Assembly: GCA_025462735.1 (NCBI GenBank)
Contig: JAOAPC010000003.1
Location: forward strand, 1-64,000
Length of the DNA: 64,000 nucleotides
Source: Acidobacteriaceae bacterium
Lineage (GTDB): Bacteria; Acidobacteriota; Terriglobia; Terriglobales; Acidobacteriaceae
Reading direction: 5' to 3'
The translations under genes and the position numbers were made by a program. This document shows positions 1-54,038 of the stretch, one piece after another. Within the stretch, counting starts at the first letter, position 1, and every line of letters starts with the position of its first letter. The notes under the pieces are model-generated. The model ran no database searches. It saw only the letters and a list, made by a program, of their open reading frames with translations, and was not told the origin of the DNA.

Positions 1-120
<120 letters not shown>

Positions 121-16301: not shown

Positions 16302-16383
16302 CCGTCCCTTCGGGACTCCCGTTTACTCCAACTTTACCCAGCGCTCACGCGCTGGGCTAACTATATTCCGTCCCTGTGGGACT
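16302..16383 (+). repeat. Three-hairpin dispersed repeat, copy 1
   Basis: Three successive hairpins: CCGTCCCTTCGGGACTC, CCCAGCGCTCACGCGCTGGG, and CCGTCCCTGTGGGACT after an AT-rich CTATATT. Other copies at 18782-18867 and 45563-45648 keep the stems with different bases. Confidence 0.75.
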
Positions 16384-18781: not shown

Positions 18782-18867
18782 GTCGTCCCTTCGGGACTCG
18801 TGTCGGCTGCACTCTTCACCTAGCGCTGACGCGCTGGGCTATCTAAATTCCGCCCTTGCAGGGCTGG
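18782..18867 (+). repeat. Three-hairpin dispersed repeat, copy 2
   Basis: GTCGTCCCTTCGGGACTCG, CTAGCGCTGACGCGCTGGG and CGCCCTTGCAGGGCTGG, in the same order as at 16302-16383. Preceded by hairpins GGCACGAGTTCACTCGTGCC (18712-18731) and GTACGTGTGAACACGTGT. The whole 18624-18976 interval holds repeats and no gene. Confidence 0.7.
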
Positions 18868-45414: not shown

Positions 45415-45660
45415 AGGCGCGGGCGTCTCGCCCGTGCCACGGCCCTTCGAGGCGGTCGAACTGCCTTGAAAGGGCTCGGCTTTCAGCCGAGCTGTCCGTC
45501 GGCTTTGGGGAAGTTACGGCACGGCTGAAAGCCGTGCCCTTTCAAAGATTCTCAGGACCCATGCCGTCCCTGAAGGGACTCGGGGCTTTCTGCATTCCTT
45601 CCCGGCACTCACGTGCCGGGCTATTTATATTCCGCCGCTGCGCGGCTAGTTATCGTGGTG
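45415..45660 (+). repeat. Repeat cluster incl. three-hairpin repeat, copy 3
   Basis: 45418-45439: GCGCGGGCGTCTCGCCCGTG. 45466-45545: inverted AAAGGGCTCGGCTTTCAGCC / GGCTGAAAGCCGTGCCCTTT. 45563-45648: the three-hairpin repeat, GCCGTCCCTGAAGGGACTCG, CCCGGCACTCACGTGCCGGG, CCGCCGCTGCGCGGC. No gene from 45366 to 45806. Confidence 0.75.
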
Positions 45661-45806: not shown

Positions 45807-46687
45807 ATGTTGCTAAACAGTCTTCTCGATCAGGGTACTTCGCCCCTTGTCGTTCCCTCTGTCTACTTCGATACCCAAATCCTATCCCGCGTCGCACGCG
45901 GGAGATTTCCGAGCAAGACTGGAAAATCATCGCCGAGTACGTAGATCGTAACGCTCAGCACTGGGTATCCTTGACGACGATGTATGAATTGTTATCTGGA
46001 GCGCCAGATGGTGACGAATCGCGTTTCGGCGAGTATCGCAACGCCTTCGCCGCCTTACGGATAAGTCGCCGTCAGACCTATCTTCCCCTCGTCGGAGACT
46101 TCATTCGTAACAGGTTGTTCGGACTTCCGCTACGACGACAGGATTTCGGACCGGACGAATTGAGCAAGTGGATTGATATTGTGGTTCGGTCTTCCTCCCG
46201 CGCCGATTTACTGAGTGGTCTTGTTGAACTCGATGAATCCGACCCCCAGAGTTACGGCTTCAAATTGGCAATGGTCCGAGATCATATATCAAAAGGAAAG
46301 GCCCAATACGTTGAACGATTGAAGGCCCTCAAAGCCGAAGGAAAGAAACGCCACGATATTGGAACTTGGGCTTCGCGAATAGTGTACCAACTACAGCTGC
46401 CTCTCACGAAGCAGAATAAGCGGAAAATAGAAGAAGCACTGGATGTTGCATATCATCATGACGTAAGCATTCGGACGAAGTCTAGAGAGAAGAAATTCAA
46501 CTTCGAAAAACACGCAAGCTCATGGCTTGATTCCAACCAACTCTTCTATTTAGCAGACCCGAATTTCATTTTCGTAACTGCGGATAGGAAGTTAGTTCGG
46601 GAAGTATCAGCAAGCTCGCAAGCAAAGCGAACGCTTCTCTTCGATGATTTACTCAAGATCGCGAAAGTCGACATGCCACCCTTATAA
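45807..46687 (+). pseudogene. PIN-domain protein, frameshifted
   Basis: The 5' part (45807-~45900) reads MLLNSLLDQGTSPLVVPSVY then FDTQILSRVARG in one frame; from about 45890 the homologous continuation 'REISEQDWKIIAEYVDRNAQ' is in another frame and runs to 46687. Joined, it gives a PIN-like nuclease of ~290 aa: first acidic motif 'VYFDTQIL', Glu in 'LTTMYELLSG', and the C-terminal 'NFIFVTADRKLVREV' acidic motif. It is therefore either a real mutation that inactivates an RNA-cleaving (toxin- or defence-type) protein, or a one-base sequence error near 45885-45905. Lower G+C than its neighbours by eye. The last 6 bases overlap the thrS end tail-to-tail. Confidence 0.65.
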
Positions 46688-48892
46688 CAGCGACGTTTTT
46701 TCCGCGATCAGCTTCCTAACTCTCTCCCCAAATTCCTCCGCGCTCATATCTTCCGTCTTCTCTTTTCCTCTGGTCCGGACGTTCACCTTGCCGGCTTCGG
46801 CTTCTTTGTCTCCGACGACCAGCATGAACGGGACTTTCTGCATCGCGTGCTCGCGGATTTTGGCGTTCATTTTTTCGTTGTGGGCGTCCACTTCGACGCG
46901 AACGTTCACGGATCCCACGTCTCGCAAAACCGGCGAGAAATGGGGCACCCCCAACTCTGCCGAGCTCGGCTCGGCCGGGCGGGTCTGGAGACCCGCCCCT
47001 ACATGGGCACTCTCACCACGCAGCATCGCTGCAACTTTGTTCGCATACTCGACATGCCTCTCGGCGATTGGAATCAGCACGACCTGCACCGGTGACAACC
47101 ATACCGGGAACGCTCCCGCGTAGTGCTCAATCAGCACGCCGAAGAATCGCTCGATTGATCCATACAGCGCGCGATGCACCATCACCGGCTGTTTGCGGGT
47201 TCCGTCTTCCGCGACGTATTCCAGCCCAAAGCGAGCAGGCAAGTTGAAATCAAACTGCACGGTCGAAAGCTGCCAGAGCCGGCCAATCGCATCCACAAGC
47301 TTGATATCAATTTTTGGGCCGTAGAAAGCCGCTTCACCCGGAATCGTCTTGTACTCGATCCCAAGACGCTTGAGCACTTTTTCCAAAGAAGCCGTCGCCG
47401 TATTCCACTGCTCTTCTGATCCCACAAAGCTTGCACGCTGCGCTGGGTCCCAGGTCGACAGCTCCGTAACGAATTGATCGAACCCAAAATCTTTCAGTAC
47501 GTCGCGCGCAAACTCAACGCAATCGGCAATTTCTTTTTCAATCTGCTCCGGAGTGCAAAATATATGCGCGTCGTCTTGAGTAAACCCTCGCACACGTAGA
47601 AGCCCGTGCATCACTCCAGACCGCTCATACCGATACACCGTGCCCAGCTCGCTCAGCCGCACCGGCAAATCGCGATACGACTTCAGCGAGTCCTTATATA
47701 TAAGAATGTGTCCGGGGCAGTTCATCGGCTTCAGGCGATACTCGGCGTCGTCCAGCTCCATCACGTCAAACATGTTCTGCGAGTAATAGCCCTCGTGCCC
47801 CGAGGTCTGCCAAAGCTGCTTGCGCATCACGTGCGGCGTGTACACCAGCGAATAGCCGCGCTTGATGTACTGGTCGCGCATCCAGTCTTCCATCTCTTTG
47901 CGGATGATGCCGCCCTTGGGGTGCCAGAAAATCAGCCCCGGCCCGGCCAGCTCCTGAATGGAAAACAGATCGAGCTGCTTGCCCAGCACGCGATGGTCGC
48001 GCTTCTTGGCCTCTTCGATCTGGTGCAGATAATTGTCGAGGTCTTTTTTTGAGAAAAATGACGTCCCGTAGATGCGCTGCAGTTGCGGGTTCTTCTCGTC
48101 GCCCAACCAGTACGCGCCGGCAATATTCAGCAGCTTGAATGCCTTGATCTTGCCGGTTGAAGGAATGTGCGGCCCGCGGCAGAAGTCGAGAAACTTGCCG
48201 GTCTTGTAAATCGAAATCTTTTCATCGGGACGAGTGAACTGCTCGATGAAGTGGCACTTCATGAAGTCGCCTTCACTCTTGAAGCGCTGCAAGCCTTCAT
48301 CCCGCGGCAAAAACTCGCGCGCGTACGGCAGGTTCTGCTGCACCAGCTCCTGCATTTTCTTTTCGATTTTTTCCAGGTCCTCGGGAGTGAATGGAGTTGG
48401 ACGATAGAAGTCGTAAAAGAATCCGCTCTCGGTGGCGGGGCCGTGGCCAAGCTTGGTCTCCGGAAAAAGTTCGAGCACCGCTGCTGCGAGTAAGTGTGCG
48501 GACGAATGCCGATAAACTCCCAGCGCCTCGGGATCTTTTTCCGTGAGGATGCGCAGGTCGGTGTCTTTATCTAACGGCCGGGTCAGATCGATGAGGTCGC
48601 CATCACTCGCTGATTGTGGAGGGACGGGCTGTGTGGGGCGGGCGCCCTCGCCCGCCTGATCTTGAGTGTAGCGGCGGCCCTCCAGAGCCTGCCCTGAGCT
48701 CGCCGAAGGGTCCGCCCGACTTTGATCTTGCGAGCTGGGGCCGTTTCCCCGATGCAAAGGCTTTGCCTTGGCCGCTATCGCCGCATCCGCCAGCCGCGGA
48801 CTGATCGACTTCGCGACATCGAGCGCAGTCGCGCCCTTAGGCACTTCTTTCTCGCTCCCATCTGGGAGCTTAATGTGAATGTTTTCTGACAT
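46682..48892 (-). CDS. thrS: Threonyl-tRNA synthetase
   Basis: 736 aa, roughly 90 longer than usual. Charges tRNA-Thr. TGS (1-~105), editing domain ('RHSSAHLLAAAVLELFPETKLGHGPATESGFFYDF' with HxxxH), class II catalytic core ('YTPHVMRKQLWQTSGHEGYYS', 'MNCPGHILIYK', 'RVRGFTQDDAHIFCTPEQ', 'VMVHRALYGSIERFFGVLIEHYAGAFP') and anticodon-binding domain (~600-736). Two palindromic repeats are inserted in frame: residues ~49-93 within the TGS domain and ~623-650 in the anticodon-binding domain. Catalytic motifs are intact. Confidence 0.96.
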   Translation of the reverse strand: MSENIHIKLPDGSEKEVPKGATALDVAKSISPRLADAAIAAKAKPLHRGNGPSSQDQSRADPSASSGQALEGRRYTQDQAGEGARPTQPVPPQSASDGDLIDLTRPLDKDTDLRILTEKDPEALGVYRHSSAHLLAAAVLELFPETKLGHGPATESGFFYDFYRPTPFTPEDLEKIEKKMQELVQQNLPYAREFLPRDEGLQRFKSEGDFMKCHFIEQFTRPDEKISIYKTGKFLDFCRGPHIPSTGKIKAFKLLNIAGAYWLGDEKNPQLQRIYGTSFFSKKDLDNYLHQIEEAKKRDHRVLGKQLDLFSIQELAGPGLIFWHPKGGIIRKEMEDWMRDQYIKRGYSLVYTPHVMRKQLWQTSGHEGYYSQNMFDVMELDDAEYRLKPMNCPGHILIYKDSLKSYRDLPVRLSELGTVYRYERSGVMHGLLRVRGFTQDDAHIFCTPEQIEKEIADCVEFARDVLKDFGFDQFVTELSTWDPAQRASFVGSEEQWNTATASLEKVLKRLGIEYKTIPGEAAFYGPKIDIKLVDAIGRLWQLSTVQFDFNLPARFGLEYVAEDGTRKQPVMVHRALYGSIERFFGVLIEHYAGAFPVWLSPVQVVLIPIAERHVEYANKVAAMLRGESAHVGAGLQTRPAEPSSAELGVPHFSPVLRDVGSVNVRVEVDAHNEKMNAKIREHAMQKVPFMLVVGDKEAEAGKVNVRTRGKEKTEDMSAEEFGERVRKLIAEKTSLL
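46930..47024. repeat. Palindromic insert 2 inside thrS
   Basis: Contains GCCGAGCTCGGC and GGGCGGGTCTGGAGACCCGCCC followed by CTACATGGGC. Codes for 'HVGAGLQTRPAEPSSAELGV' and a few flanking residues in the anticodon-binding domain. Confidence 0.72.
48612..48745. repeat. Palindromic insert 1 inside thrS
   Basis: Contains GGGCGGGCGCCCTCGCCCGCC, a TGATCTTGAGTGTAGCGGCG block and CCTGCCCTGAGCTCGCCGAA. Codes for about 45 residues of low-complexity 'SSQDQSRADPSASSGQALEG' type inside the TGS domain. Confidence 0.72.
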
Positions 48893-50325: not shown

Positions 50326-50441
50326 CAAAAATCAACAGCCCCGGTAGTCTGCCGGGACTGGATTGCCAGGGAGTACGCTGCCTATCAGGACGATCATAGC
50401 AAGCTGAGCGCAATTATCTAGTGGCCGTGCGGAGGACGACG
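50326..50441 (-). other. Decayed second copy of allo-tRNA locus (3' part)
   Basis: On the minus strand: 3' acceptor strand CGTCCTCC (50438-50431), then a spacer with TGCTATGAT (50401-50393), a tail CCTGATAGGCAGCGTACTCC and CTGGCAATCC, and the terminator hairpin CAGTCCCGGCAGACTACCGG..., the same order as after the intact tRNA at 53812-53900. The 5' part and T arm of the tRNA are missing or decayed; RAYT1/REP sequence begins immediately beyond (50456). The tail differs from the other copy at several places, implying a tRNA with anticodon stem GCTGC/GCAGC and again anticodon ATC. Confidence 0.6.
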
Positions 50442-50465: not shown

Positions 50466-50999
50466 TCAGGGCACGCCTTCAGGCGTGCCGACCGGGAGCA
50501 GGAAGCTTGAGGGCTTTAGCCCCTGAGGCACTTCGTCAAGCTCGAATCTGCCACAAGCGGAAGAATACGCGTATTCCGTGGCGCTCAGCACGAGTCGCCG
50601 CTTCACCGGATTCTGGGCGATGTACTCCTGGACGCGACCGAGGTGCTCCGGGTCATAAATTCGCACTTCTGAGAATCCGCGCTGCCAGACCGGTGGCCTG
50701 AACCCGAACTGTTTACCGGCACGGAAGGCGAATCCGCCTTTGATGAATTGAGCCGCGCGCTCAATGGTGATTTCGTGGCCGACTGTGATCAGTAGGTGAA
50801 AATGGTCAGGCATAACCACGAAGCTATGCAGAAAGTATTTGCGCTCTGAGCGGTAGTGGTACAAAACATCGATGAAGAGGCTTGCGGAGCGCTCGGATTG
50901 CAGCAGATTGCGTTTTCCTGCGATTGATGATGTCACGAAAAAAGCTCGCAGTGTTGGAGGAATGGCGGATAGTCCGGCGTGACGACTGGGGATTGCCAT
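50466..50999 (-). CDS. REP-associated tyrosine transposase (RAYT), copy 1
   Basis: 177 aa. Y1/HUH-type single-strand transposase: HUH motif in 'VVMPDHFHLLITVG' and catalytic Tyr in 'RVQEYIAQNPVKRRL', with 'WQRGFSEVRIYD' between, the pattern of TnpA_REP proteins that process REP hairpins. 23 of 177 residues differ from RAYT2 (about 87% identity by eye). Its last codons and stop lie inside a REP hairpin (GGCACGCCTGAAGGCGTGCC codes GTPEGVP), and 'GLKP' is coded by a second hairpin (GGGGCTAAAGCCC). REP units in inverted orientation flank both sides. Confidence 0.93.
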   Translation of the reverse strand: MAIPSRHAGLSAIPPTLRAFFVTSSIAGKRNLLQSERSASLFIDVLYHYRSERKYFLHSFVVMPDHFHLLITVGHEITIERAAQFIKGGFAFRAGKQFGFRPPVWQRGFSEVRIYDPEHLGRVQEYIAQNPVKRRLVLSATEYAYSSACGRFELDEVPQGLKPSSFLLPVGTPEGVP

Positions 51000-52792: not shown

Positions 52793-52826
52793 TTTGTATC
52801 AGGGCACGCCTTCAGGCGTGCCGATC
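52793..52826. repeat. REP hairpin at RAYT2 3' end
   Basis: TTTGTATCAGGGCACGCCTT then CAGGCGTGCC: an inverted REP unit overlapping the stop codon of RAYT2, equivalent to 50459-50488 at RAYT1. Confidence 0.85.
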
Positions 52827-53332
52827 AGGAGCAGAGAGTTTGAGGGCTTTAGCCCCTGAGGAGGACCATCCAGTTCAAATCTGCCACACGCGGAAGAATA
52901 CGAATATTCCGTCGCGTTCTGGGCGAGCCGCCGCTTCACCGGATTCTGGGCGATGTACTCCTGGACACGACTGAGGTGTTTCGAATCATAAATTCGCACC
53001 TCTGAAAATCCTCGTTGCCAGACCGGTGGCCTAAACCCGAACGATTTTCCGGCACGAAACGCGAATCCACCTTTGATGAATTGAACCGCGCGTTCGATGG
53101 TGATTTCGTGGCCGACTGTGATCAGTAGGTGAAAATGGTCAGGCATAACCACGAAGCTATGCAGAAGGTATTTACGCTCCGAGCGGTAGTGGTACAAAAC
53201 ATCGATGAAGAGGCTTGCGGAGCGCTCGGATTGCAGCAGATTGCGTTTTGCTGCGATTGATGATGTCACGAAAAAAGTTCGGAGCGTTGGCGGAATGGCC
53301 GATGGTTCGCCCTGACGGCGGGGGATTGCCAT
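52799..53332 (-). CDS. REP-associated tyrosine transposase (RAYT), copy 2
   Basis: 177 aa, same length and layout as RAYT1: 'VVMPDHFHLLITVG' HUH motif and 'RVQEYIAQNPVKRRL' with the catalytic Tyr. Differences cluster at the N-terminus, around the Tyr helix and at the C-terminal tail. It also ends inside a REP hairpin (GTPEGVP plus stop). A REP array lies upstream (53418-53692) and the allo-tRNA gene just beyond it. Intact and probably functional. Confidence 0.93.
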   Translation of the reverse strand: MAIPRRQGEPSAIPPTLRTFFVTSSIAAKRNLLQSERSASLFIDVLYHYRSERKYLLHSFVVMPDHFHLLITVGHEITIERAVQFIKGGFAFRAGKSFGFRPPVWQRGFSEVRIYDSKHLSRVQEYIAQNPVKRRLAQNATEYSYSSACGRFELDGPPQGLKPSNSLLLIGTPEGVP

Positions 53333-53701: not shown

Positions 53702-53735
53702 CAAAAATCAAAAGCCCCGGTAGTCTGCCGGGGCT
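53702..53735 (-). terminator. Rho-independent terminator after allo-tRNA locus
   Basis: On the minus strand a perfect 8-bp stem AGCCCCGG / CCGGGGCT with loop CAGACTA is followed by TTTTGATTTTT. The same terminator, with one stem mismatch, ends the decayed copy at 50326-50360. Confidence 0.85.
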
Positions 53736-53738
53736 GGA

Positions 53739-53778
53739 TTGCCAGTTGGTACGCCGTCTATCAAGGACAATTATAGCA
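53739..53778 (-). ncRNA. Segment antisense to the allo-tRNA (3' tail or small RNA)
   Basis: On the minus strand the segment TTGATAGACGGC...GTACC...ACTGGCAA (53764-53739) is complementary to the tRNA's own anticodon arm (12 of 12) and D arm (8 plus 5 bases). It is preceded by TGCTATAAT (53778-53770), an extended -10 sequence, and followed by the terminator at 53735-53702. It may be the 3' tail of the tRNA transcript or a separate ~60-nt RNA. Kept with sequence changes in the decayed copy at 50326-50441. Confidence 0.45.
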
Positions 53779-53811
53779 AGCGCACAGTTTTGATTTAATC
53801 GAGTGGTCGCG

Positions 53812-53900
53812 CGGAGGACGACGGACTCGAACCGTAATGGCTGACTAGGCCACTCGACCGTTTGATAGACGGCGTCCAGTACCCACTGGCAACGTCCTCC
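53812..53900 (-). tRNA. Allo-tRNA with 8/4 acceptor/T-stem, anticodon AUC
   Basis: 89 nt. 8-bp acceptor stem GGAGGACG (53900-53893) with CGTCCTCC (53820-53813), G73 at 53812, no encoded CCA. D arm: 5-bp stem CCAGT/ACTGG with 4-base loop GGGT. Anticodon arm GCCGT-CTATCAA-ACGGT, so anticodon ATC at 53866-53864 (codon GAU). Long variable arm TGGC/GCCA with a 7-base loop. T arm ACGG-TTCGAGT-CCGT, 4 bp, with all T-loop consensus bases, joined directly to the acceptor. The 8/4 shape, 12 bp in total, is that of the allo-tRNAs reported from Acidobacteria. G73 and the long arm predict serylation, so it could be a missense suppressor. Terminator downstream. Confidence 0.82.
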
Positions 53901-54038
53901 CAAACGCGATCTATCCTCGTTCAGTGTTGGACTTAACGGCGCTGCGCGCAAGCCCACGAAAGTAGGTACTTGTAGCTCCCAAAACGGGAATCGGCAGTTG
54001 CCTCGGAATGACAAATCTTGGGATGGCATAGGCGGCAC

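Follow-up and report, generated by a model that had tools for sequence, protein, structure and literature searches.

An 8/4 allo-tRNA gene of Acidobacteriaceae with a covarying antisense element downstream: a candidate antisense-silenced tRNA

The window (the whole stretch of 64,000 nucleotides of Acidobacteriaceae DNA analysed here) carries an 8/4 allo-tRNA gene followed, on the same strand, by a short element complementary to the tRNA's own anticodon arm. Comparison of related loci supports this complementarity, its covariation and a consensus promoter and terminator for the downstream unit. We consider it rather probable that such loci encode an allo-tRNA, probably of a serine-accepting missense type, silenced by a dedicated antisense sRNA, the pair plausibly forming an RNA-only module that resembles toxin-antitoxin systems. 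The earlier note on this DNA, made from the letters alone, is partly supported; what tells most about this locus, the covarying antisense partner, escaped it.

The proposed module would comprise two RNAs. The first, an 8/4 allo-tRNA, combines a serine-type architecture with a non-serine anticodon and, if charged with serine, would in the case of the window copy put this amino acid at GAU, a common sense codon for Asp. The second would be a short antisense RNA of roughly 60 nt, with its own promoter (closer to consensus than that of the tRNA) and an intrinsic terminator at its end. Decoding would be blocked by its 5' part, which would pair with the loop and stem of the anticodon and with a portion of the D arm. 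The trailer, and perhaps the leader, may pair with the same central region and thus confine the unprocessed precursor to an inactive conformation. A drop in antisense level would set the stable tRNA free, in the manner of an RNA-only toxin-antitoxin-like switch. We infer that both RNAs are made, that the antisense silences the tRNA and that the tRNA carries serine.

Features of the allo-tRNA locus and of its broken second copy in the window
Feature	Position	Strand	Remarks
5' leader element	53902..53916	-	complements own D-stem 3' end, anticodon stem 5' strand and anticodon loop; 13/15 pair
8/4 allo-tRNA gene	53812..53900	-	anticodon ATC; anticodon arm 53857-53873; CCA not encoded
3' trailer element	53798..53808	-	complements anticodon-stem end and variable-arm 5' strand; 10/11 pairs
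Extended -10 promoter element TGCTATAAT	53770..53778	-	precedes antisense; best -35 partner 3/6 matches
Antisense stretch, 26 nt	53739..53764	-	complements anticodon arm and D arm of neighbouring allo-tRNA
Intrinsic terminator of antisense unit	53713..53735	-	also first terminator found downstream of tRNA
Broken second copy	50326..50441	-	last bases of tRNA, trailer, antisense and terminator; 79% match to query bases 98-219

The allo-tRNA gene

ARAGORN recognized a tRNA with anticodon ATC at 53811-53900 on the minus strand. Together with the fold and a conserved, covarying cloverleaf, this bore out the intact 8/4 tRNA with anticodon AUC that had been described from the letters. The minimum free energy of its fold was -36.5 kcal/mol (z = -2.43), a value equalled or bettered by 2 of 200 dinucleotide shuffles. 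The acceptor stem (GGAGGACG/CGTCCTCC, 8 bp) and the T stem (ACGG/CCGT, 4 bp) add up to a 12-bp acceptor branch, the T loop TTCGAGT is the consensus one, and the D stem (CCAGT/ACTGG, 5 bp) encloses the loop GGGT; these stems and loops, as well as G73, agreed with the earlier description. The variable-arm stem did not, since 4 bp had been counted where there are 6. The anticodon loop, CTATCAA, displays U33 and A37. The long variable arm and G73 are SerRS identity features. No CCA is encoded, in contrast to the 45 canonical tRNAs examined in the same genome, which do encode it.

An alignment of 30 tRNAs of relatives had 97.4% of its 835 cells paired. Two-sided changes occurred at 13 of 28 pairs (reached by none of 500 shuffles), all within the acceptor, anticodon and T stems, so that the retention of the 8/4 fold with compensatory changes, which the earlier note had named as support, was indeed observed. 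The variable arm displayed one-sided changes only, and the D stem was invariant, partly because many loci were found by an exact D-arm pattern (TTNCCAGTGGGTACTGGAC), which makes this invariance in part an effect of selection.

At gathering thresholds, an Rfam scan assigned the window allo-tRNA to no family. The tRNA-Sec covariance model that had been suggested as a check was the closest one (RF01852, 45.4 bits, just under the gathering value of 47, E 3.8e-8); both share a 12-bp acceptor branch and a short D loop, the difference being the window anticodon AUC instead of UCA. A selenocysteine tRNA was rejected on account of the anticodon ATC and of a separate tRNA-Sec (69.9 bits, anticodon TCA) and selA in the genome. 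That tRNA-Sec had no antisense in the tests applied to the allo-tRNAs, its values being 9 downstream and 7 in the leader. The filling of a decoding gap was likewise rejected, a canonical tRNA-Asp(GTC) being present in the genome.

Assignment to the allo-tRNA class also held, a type that is reviewed for Acidobacteria in the allo-tRNA section of PMC7609411. In E. coli, according to the same section, Ser insertion was seen with two allo-tRNAs from Silvibacterium bohemicum. By analogy, Ser-for-Asp decoding by the window allo-tRNA is plausible.

The antisense unit

The antisense stretch TTGATAGACGGCGTACCAACTGGCAA lies on the same strand as the allo-tRNA, 47 nt downstream of it and behind TGCTATAAT. 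Positions 53751-53764 are a perfect 14-nt complement of the anticodon loop and 5' stem strand (53862-53875), and positions 53739-53752 complement the D arm (53879-53892) at 93% over 14 nt. The -10 box ends 6 nt before the first pairing base. The best promoter score at the window locus was 9/12, and a stricter scan gave no promoter there. The downstream terminator mentioned in the earlier note is present. Yet it follows the antisense and therefore closes an antisense unit that had been overlooked.

The general organization was examined in the 80 loci that reached 11 or more of the 13 pairs (see below), antisense promoters being scored in the 71 with enough upstream sequence. A sigma-70-like promoter of at least 9/12 occurred upstream of the antisense in 53 of the 71 (shuffled 6%) and upstream of the tRNA in only 5 of 80 (shuffled 3%). 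In 47 of the 71, the end of the -10 box lies 9-10 nt ahead of the first pairing base, and the antisense RNA would therefore start close to the anti-anticodon. A terminator followed the antisense in 77 of 80 loci (shuffled 0/80). Modelled net hybrid energies averaged -17.2 kcal/mol for an antisense with its own tRNA (range -32.4 to 0.0) and -4.3 for swapped partners. In the predicted sRNA, no more than 45% of the 13 antisense bases are free of pairing on average.

Two antisense units occurred without a tRNA of their own. One is the second of two tandem units behind a single tRNA at L213 (G196:C70). Equipped with a separate promoter and terminator, it has a different specificity, its match being a GCC-type anticodon arm that is absent from the six compared loci of that genome. 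The other is the broken copy of the window, located beside a transposase-like gene: its antisense fits a different anticodon arm, the remainder of the tRNA is missing, and a promoter-like TAGATA-16-TATGAT and a terminator-like site persist.

Distribution and genomic surroundings

Two further copies were present in the same genome (C8:210172, anticodon GTC, and C11:39048). DNA searches of 61 related genomes yielded 11 matches in 8 of them, a patchy presence. The exact D-arm pattern occurred in 56 stretches of the species collection, 53 of which were labelled as Acidobacteria or groups within it; the other three comprised two chance matches (L051 and L065) and a broken locus labelled as Verrucomicrobia (L056) closely resembling an Acidobacteria contig. 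The exact pattern had no match in viral contigs, and carriage by phages or plasmids was rejected, no similar DNA having been found with that pattern in viral contigs or with blastn at E <= 1e-5.

At E <= 0.001, a covariance model picked up 131 of the 397 genomes searched in this order, the matches near 33-35 bits including ordinary tRNAs. Matches of at least 79 bits were recorded, among those listed, in 48 of the 397 genomes, all within the window's own family. Across the phylum (396 genomes), three matches reached E <= 1e-6, one of them a tRNA-Sec.

Many of the loci compared came from the exact D-arm pattern, and part of the covariance-model matches were included. A first set retained 48 of 59 unique loci and left out the chance matches L051 and L065, contig ends, broken copies, one locus with an N run and L067, where no antisense was seen by eye; L067 re-enters the 91-locus test below as L092. 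Fourteen lower-scoring, diverged loci, read by eye, also had an antisense to their own anticodon arm.

Hairpin-like repeats within the variable arm or T side break the tRNA in L013, L056, L058/L132, L133 and L119; in L132 and L133 the antisense is still found downstream. A further ensemble of allo-tRNA-like loci (L106, L107, L109, L113, L114, L117, L121, L123-L126 and L128) mostly displays a UAU-type anticodon loop. UAU-type loci reached 9-10 of 13 downstream pairs, which is chance level (11 of 12 with a usable segment), and these genes without downstream antisense seemingly form a different group.

As to the window itself, two closely similar Y1_Tnp genes (IS200-like, RAYT-like) are located at 50466-50999 and 52799-53332, both on the minus strand, and REP-like repeats such as GTATCGGGGCACGTCTTTAGACGTGCC occur beside them, close to the intact element as well as to the broken one. 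The thrS frame (46682-48892, minus strand) contains the in-frame stretches RADPSASSGQALEGRR and VGAGLQTRP, which by eye look like translated repeat elements inserted in an essential synthetase. Three Acido-Lenti-1 RNAs (RF01687, an sRNA family) scored above gathering at 16337-16383, 18819-18865 and 45601-45647 on the plus strand, and the 5' end of a 16S rRNA gene lies at the window edge (1-120, minus strand).

Complementarity and covariation

Complementarity was tested in 91 of 111 unique loci by searching 170 nt downstream for complements of a 13-nt anticodon-arm segment. The other 20 lacked a D-arm motif (for the most part UAU-type, tRNA-Sec-like and canonical matches) or had less than 130 nt downstream; L079, which has no D-arm motif and hence stands outside the 91, displays an antisense visible by eye. 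At least 11 of 13 pairs with the own anticodon arm were found in 80 of the 91 loci, against 18% for swapped and 5% for shuffled sequences, and pairing was complete in 55. On average, 12.3 bases of the segment were paired, versus 9.7 (swapped) and 9.3 (shuffled).

The 11 loci below 11/13 were heterogeneous. The antisense lies beyond the 170 nt searched in L137, L138 and L140, and in another register in L144 and in L100, the third copy of the window genome (10/13, plus a 13-nt complementary run in the shifted register). L063 and L156 have partial complements only, in L091 the trailer is followed by a gap of N (seen in this contig under the name L068), and the tRNA of L131 and L119 is degenerate. 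Finally, L092/L067 has a well-scoring tRNA (100.5 bits) and no recognisable antisense (8/13).

Earlier contrasts had used loci preselected for pairing (86 and 80), and the covariation test was repeated with nulls on all 91. It relied on 44 disjoint pairs of nearest relatives, chosen by tRNA sequence outside the anticodon region, a design that reduces the effect of shared ancestry. As many as 148 of 187 anticodon-arm differences between sisters coincided with a difference in the antisense, where 76.4 were expected. This excess of 71.6 compares with 14.2 (maximum 21.1) for shuffled and re-anchored sequences and 16.1 (maximum 23.3) for swapped regions. A pair was preserved in both loci at 133 of the 187 differences, the null maxima being 73 and 65. 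Such covariation, far above the nulls, is hardly compatible with a DNA-level inverted repeat generated by mobile-element insertion or template switching in a pseudogene family without RNA function, a disfavoured and extremely improbable reading to which the REP-like repeats, the two Y1_Tnp genes flanking the locus and the broken copies would lend themselves, and against which the G.U bias, the promoter and terminator conservation and the cloverleaf covariation also stand.

The same test supported the complementarity between the 3' trailer and the variable arm, with an excess of 20.8 (nulls 5.9, maximum 11.4, and 10.0, maximum 17.3). That between the 5' leader and the anticodon arm was suggestive, with an excess of 19.4 (nulls 6.8, sd 4.5, maximum 13.6, and 7.8, sd 5.7, maximum 20.1). 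Across the 13-nt antisense duplex, G.U oppositions numbered 48 and A.C oppositions 13; the corresponding figures were 230 and 55 for the leader and 123 and 18 for the trailer. This bias fits RNA pairing on the transcribed strand, and base composition may contribute to it, above all in the leader.

Canonical tRNAs of the window genome displayed no such feature. Downstream of 31 of them, 9.13 of 13 bases paired versus 9.17 after shuffling, two reaching 11, and the leaders of 45 gave 7.73 versus 7.68. An antisense aimed at canonical tRNAs was also rejected, since the antisenses of two of this genome's three loci (L100 lying outside the set used) did no better than shuffled ones (fractions 0.17 and 0.93). 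Within genomes, the antisense fits its own tRNA at 12.5/13, versus 9.2 for paralogues (39 loci in 16 genomes); among 60 cross pairings, six attain 12-13 of 13. An extra divergence of paralogues was not supported, with 5.57 anticodon-arm differences within and 5.53 between genomes.

Anticodons and recurrent sites

The 80 loci displayed anticodons for Arg (GCG, 25), Gly (GCC, 16), Asp (GTC, 14, and ATC, 7), Leu (GAG, 8), Glu (TTC, 6, plus L011 read as TTC, and CTC, 1) and Ile (GAT, 2). In the 2270 codons of six window reading frames, GAT, GAC, GGC, CGC, GAA, GAG, CTC and ATC ranged from 21.6 to 35.7 per thousand versus a mean of 16.4; GGT, CGT and ATT, possibly also read by some of these anticodons, were below that mean. 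Mistranslation by a serine-type tRNA that reads codons this common would be widespread. Base 37 was A in 78 of 80 relatives. Base 73 was G in 62, T in 17 and A in 1, so that G73 is not a family constant, and base 33 was C in 21 and G in 1. A variable base 73 and a base 33 other than U are unfavourable for decoding, and C33 and T73 leave room for a non-decoding role.

No neighbouring protein was conserved across all loci; there were several different recurrent sites instead. At two of the five syntenic sites examined, rpoD (6 loci) and quinone-oxidoreductase/xdhC (11 loci), the anticodon switches among GTC, GCC and GCG, and the antisense switches along with it. The anticodon was GCC in 4 of 4 loci (3 genomes) at the groEL site, GAG in 5 of 5 at the hemC site and TTC or CTC (both Glu, L011 read as TTC) in 4 of 4 at the response-regulator site. 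A universally fixed anticodon per site was thus rejected, the amino acid being constant at only three of the five.

Possible roles

These loci may serve as toxin-antitoxin modules, in defence or in regulated mistranslation. We put forward only tentatively, as a somewhat doubtful proposal, that they constitute a class of RNA-only toxin-antitoxin modules in which a toxin tRNA would cause common codons (those of Asp, Gly, Arg, Glu, Leu or Ile) to be read as Ser, the antisense would be the antidote and the precursor segments a second lock. Anticodon and antidote would diversify as a unit, and many specificities would therefore be found in one bacterial family. Among related loci, complementarity and covariation point to an RNA partner able to pair with the putative toxin RNA, and at the level of consensus this antitoxin has its own promoter (53/71) and terminator (77/80), the -35 of the window copy being poor. 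L092/L067, without antisense, speaks against a strict toxin-antidote pair, unless its flank was rearranged or misassembled. For part of the family, C33 (21/80) and T73 (17/80) make efficient missense decoding with serine less likely. Recurrent sites at housekeeping genes and the lack of phage or plasmid matches are unlike typical addiction modules and also count against this proposal. The silencing module as such has to contend with paralogues that are no more divergent than loci of different genomes, with the six cross pairings that attain 12-13, with the limited accessibility of the antisense bases (45% unpaired), with net hybrid energies that go up to 0.0, with a mature cloverleaf predicted as the minimum in 60 of 80 and with a leader covariation that is no more than suggestive.

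The same antisense-silenced tRNA might benefit its host through conditional mistranslation, by stress-induced serine misincorporation or control of decoding, and not act as an addiction device. The recurrent sites beside housekeeping genes and the three sites with a constant amino acid would agree with this. Yet the anticodon switches at the rpoD and quinone-oxidoreductase/xdhC sites, presence is patchy (8 of 61 relatives), and we regard this role as unlikely.

Quite unlikely, in our opinion, is a device acting in cis only, in which tRNA and complement form one self-folding transcript that controls processing, with no antisense in trans. The absence of a terminator between tRNA and antisense in all 80 loci would suit it. 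So would predicted folds: the antisense paired with the anticodon arm in the long transcript of 71 of 80 loci, and leader or trailer pairing appeared in 42 and 44 of 80 precursors, the window-locus precursor keeping the cloverleaf. (The predicted minimum of the mature form was the cloverleaf in 60 of 80.) Nevertheless, 53 of 71 loci have a promoter consensus positioned for transcription to begin with the antisense, and L213 has a second unit with its own promoter and terminator, two points that speak for an independent antisense RNA.

It is very unlikely that the antisense regulates other mRNAs and that the tRNA-like RNA is a titrating decoy whose decoding is irrelevant. C33, the variable base 73 and an antisense promoter closer to consensus than that of the tRNA would be understandable in such a sponge pair, but a decoy needs neither compensatory cloverleaf changes nor A37 in 78 of 80 loci, and with a paired region that changes fast, no fixed set of mRNA targets could be maintained. 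A tRNA silenced by its dedicated antisense sRNA remains the reading that we favour.

Comparison with known systems

The RNAI/RNAII pair controls plasmid copy number with a short antisense made from a strong promoter, and target and antisense diversify together. The loci described here share the short antisense and the joint diversification; they differ in that the target is the anticodon arm of a tRNA and that the antisense shares the strand of its target, lying downstream of it instead of opposite. SdsR/RyeA is, like CreTA, a type VIII toxin-antitoxin system. With CreTA, the present loci would have in common that both partners are RNAs and that the toxin RNA, putative here, acts on translation. 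According to PMC9458426, CreA directs Cascade to repress transcription of the toxic RNA CreT, in contrast to the direct pairing of antisense and tRNA proposed here.

The 8/4 allo-tRNAs themselves were reportedly first described by Mukai et al. (2017, NAR, doi 10.1093/nar/gkw898). Features shared with those of the allo-tRNA section of PMC7609411 are the 8-bp acceptor and 4-bp T stems, the long variable arm, occurrence in Acidobacteria and non-serine anticodons, GCG and GUC being among the commonest there. The difference lies in the partner RNA, which that section does not describe, the word 'antisense' being absent from the main text. More broadly, the relevant passages of PMC7609411 and PMC7590224 mention no antisense partner of such a tRNA, and none was recognised in a literature search conducted mostly at abstract level, the original 2017 description, outside its scope, possibly mentioning the complement.

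Conclusions

Allo-tRNAs are puzzling, since a serine tRNA reading the codons of other amino acids should poison the cell. A matched antisense gives a concrete answer to how cells carry such tRNAs, and makes this question directly testable in E. coli with short synthetic genes. Allo-tRNAs are known, and what may be new is an antisense RNA against a tRNA anticodon arm as a regulatory design. We know of no other tRNA controlled by a dedicated antisense RNA, and the present loci would be a natural example of it. They are also a potential ready-made set of switches for missense tRNAs.
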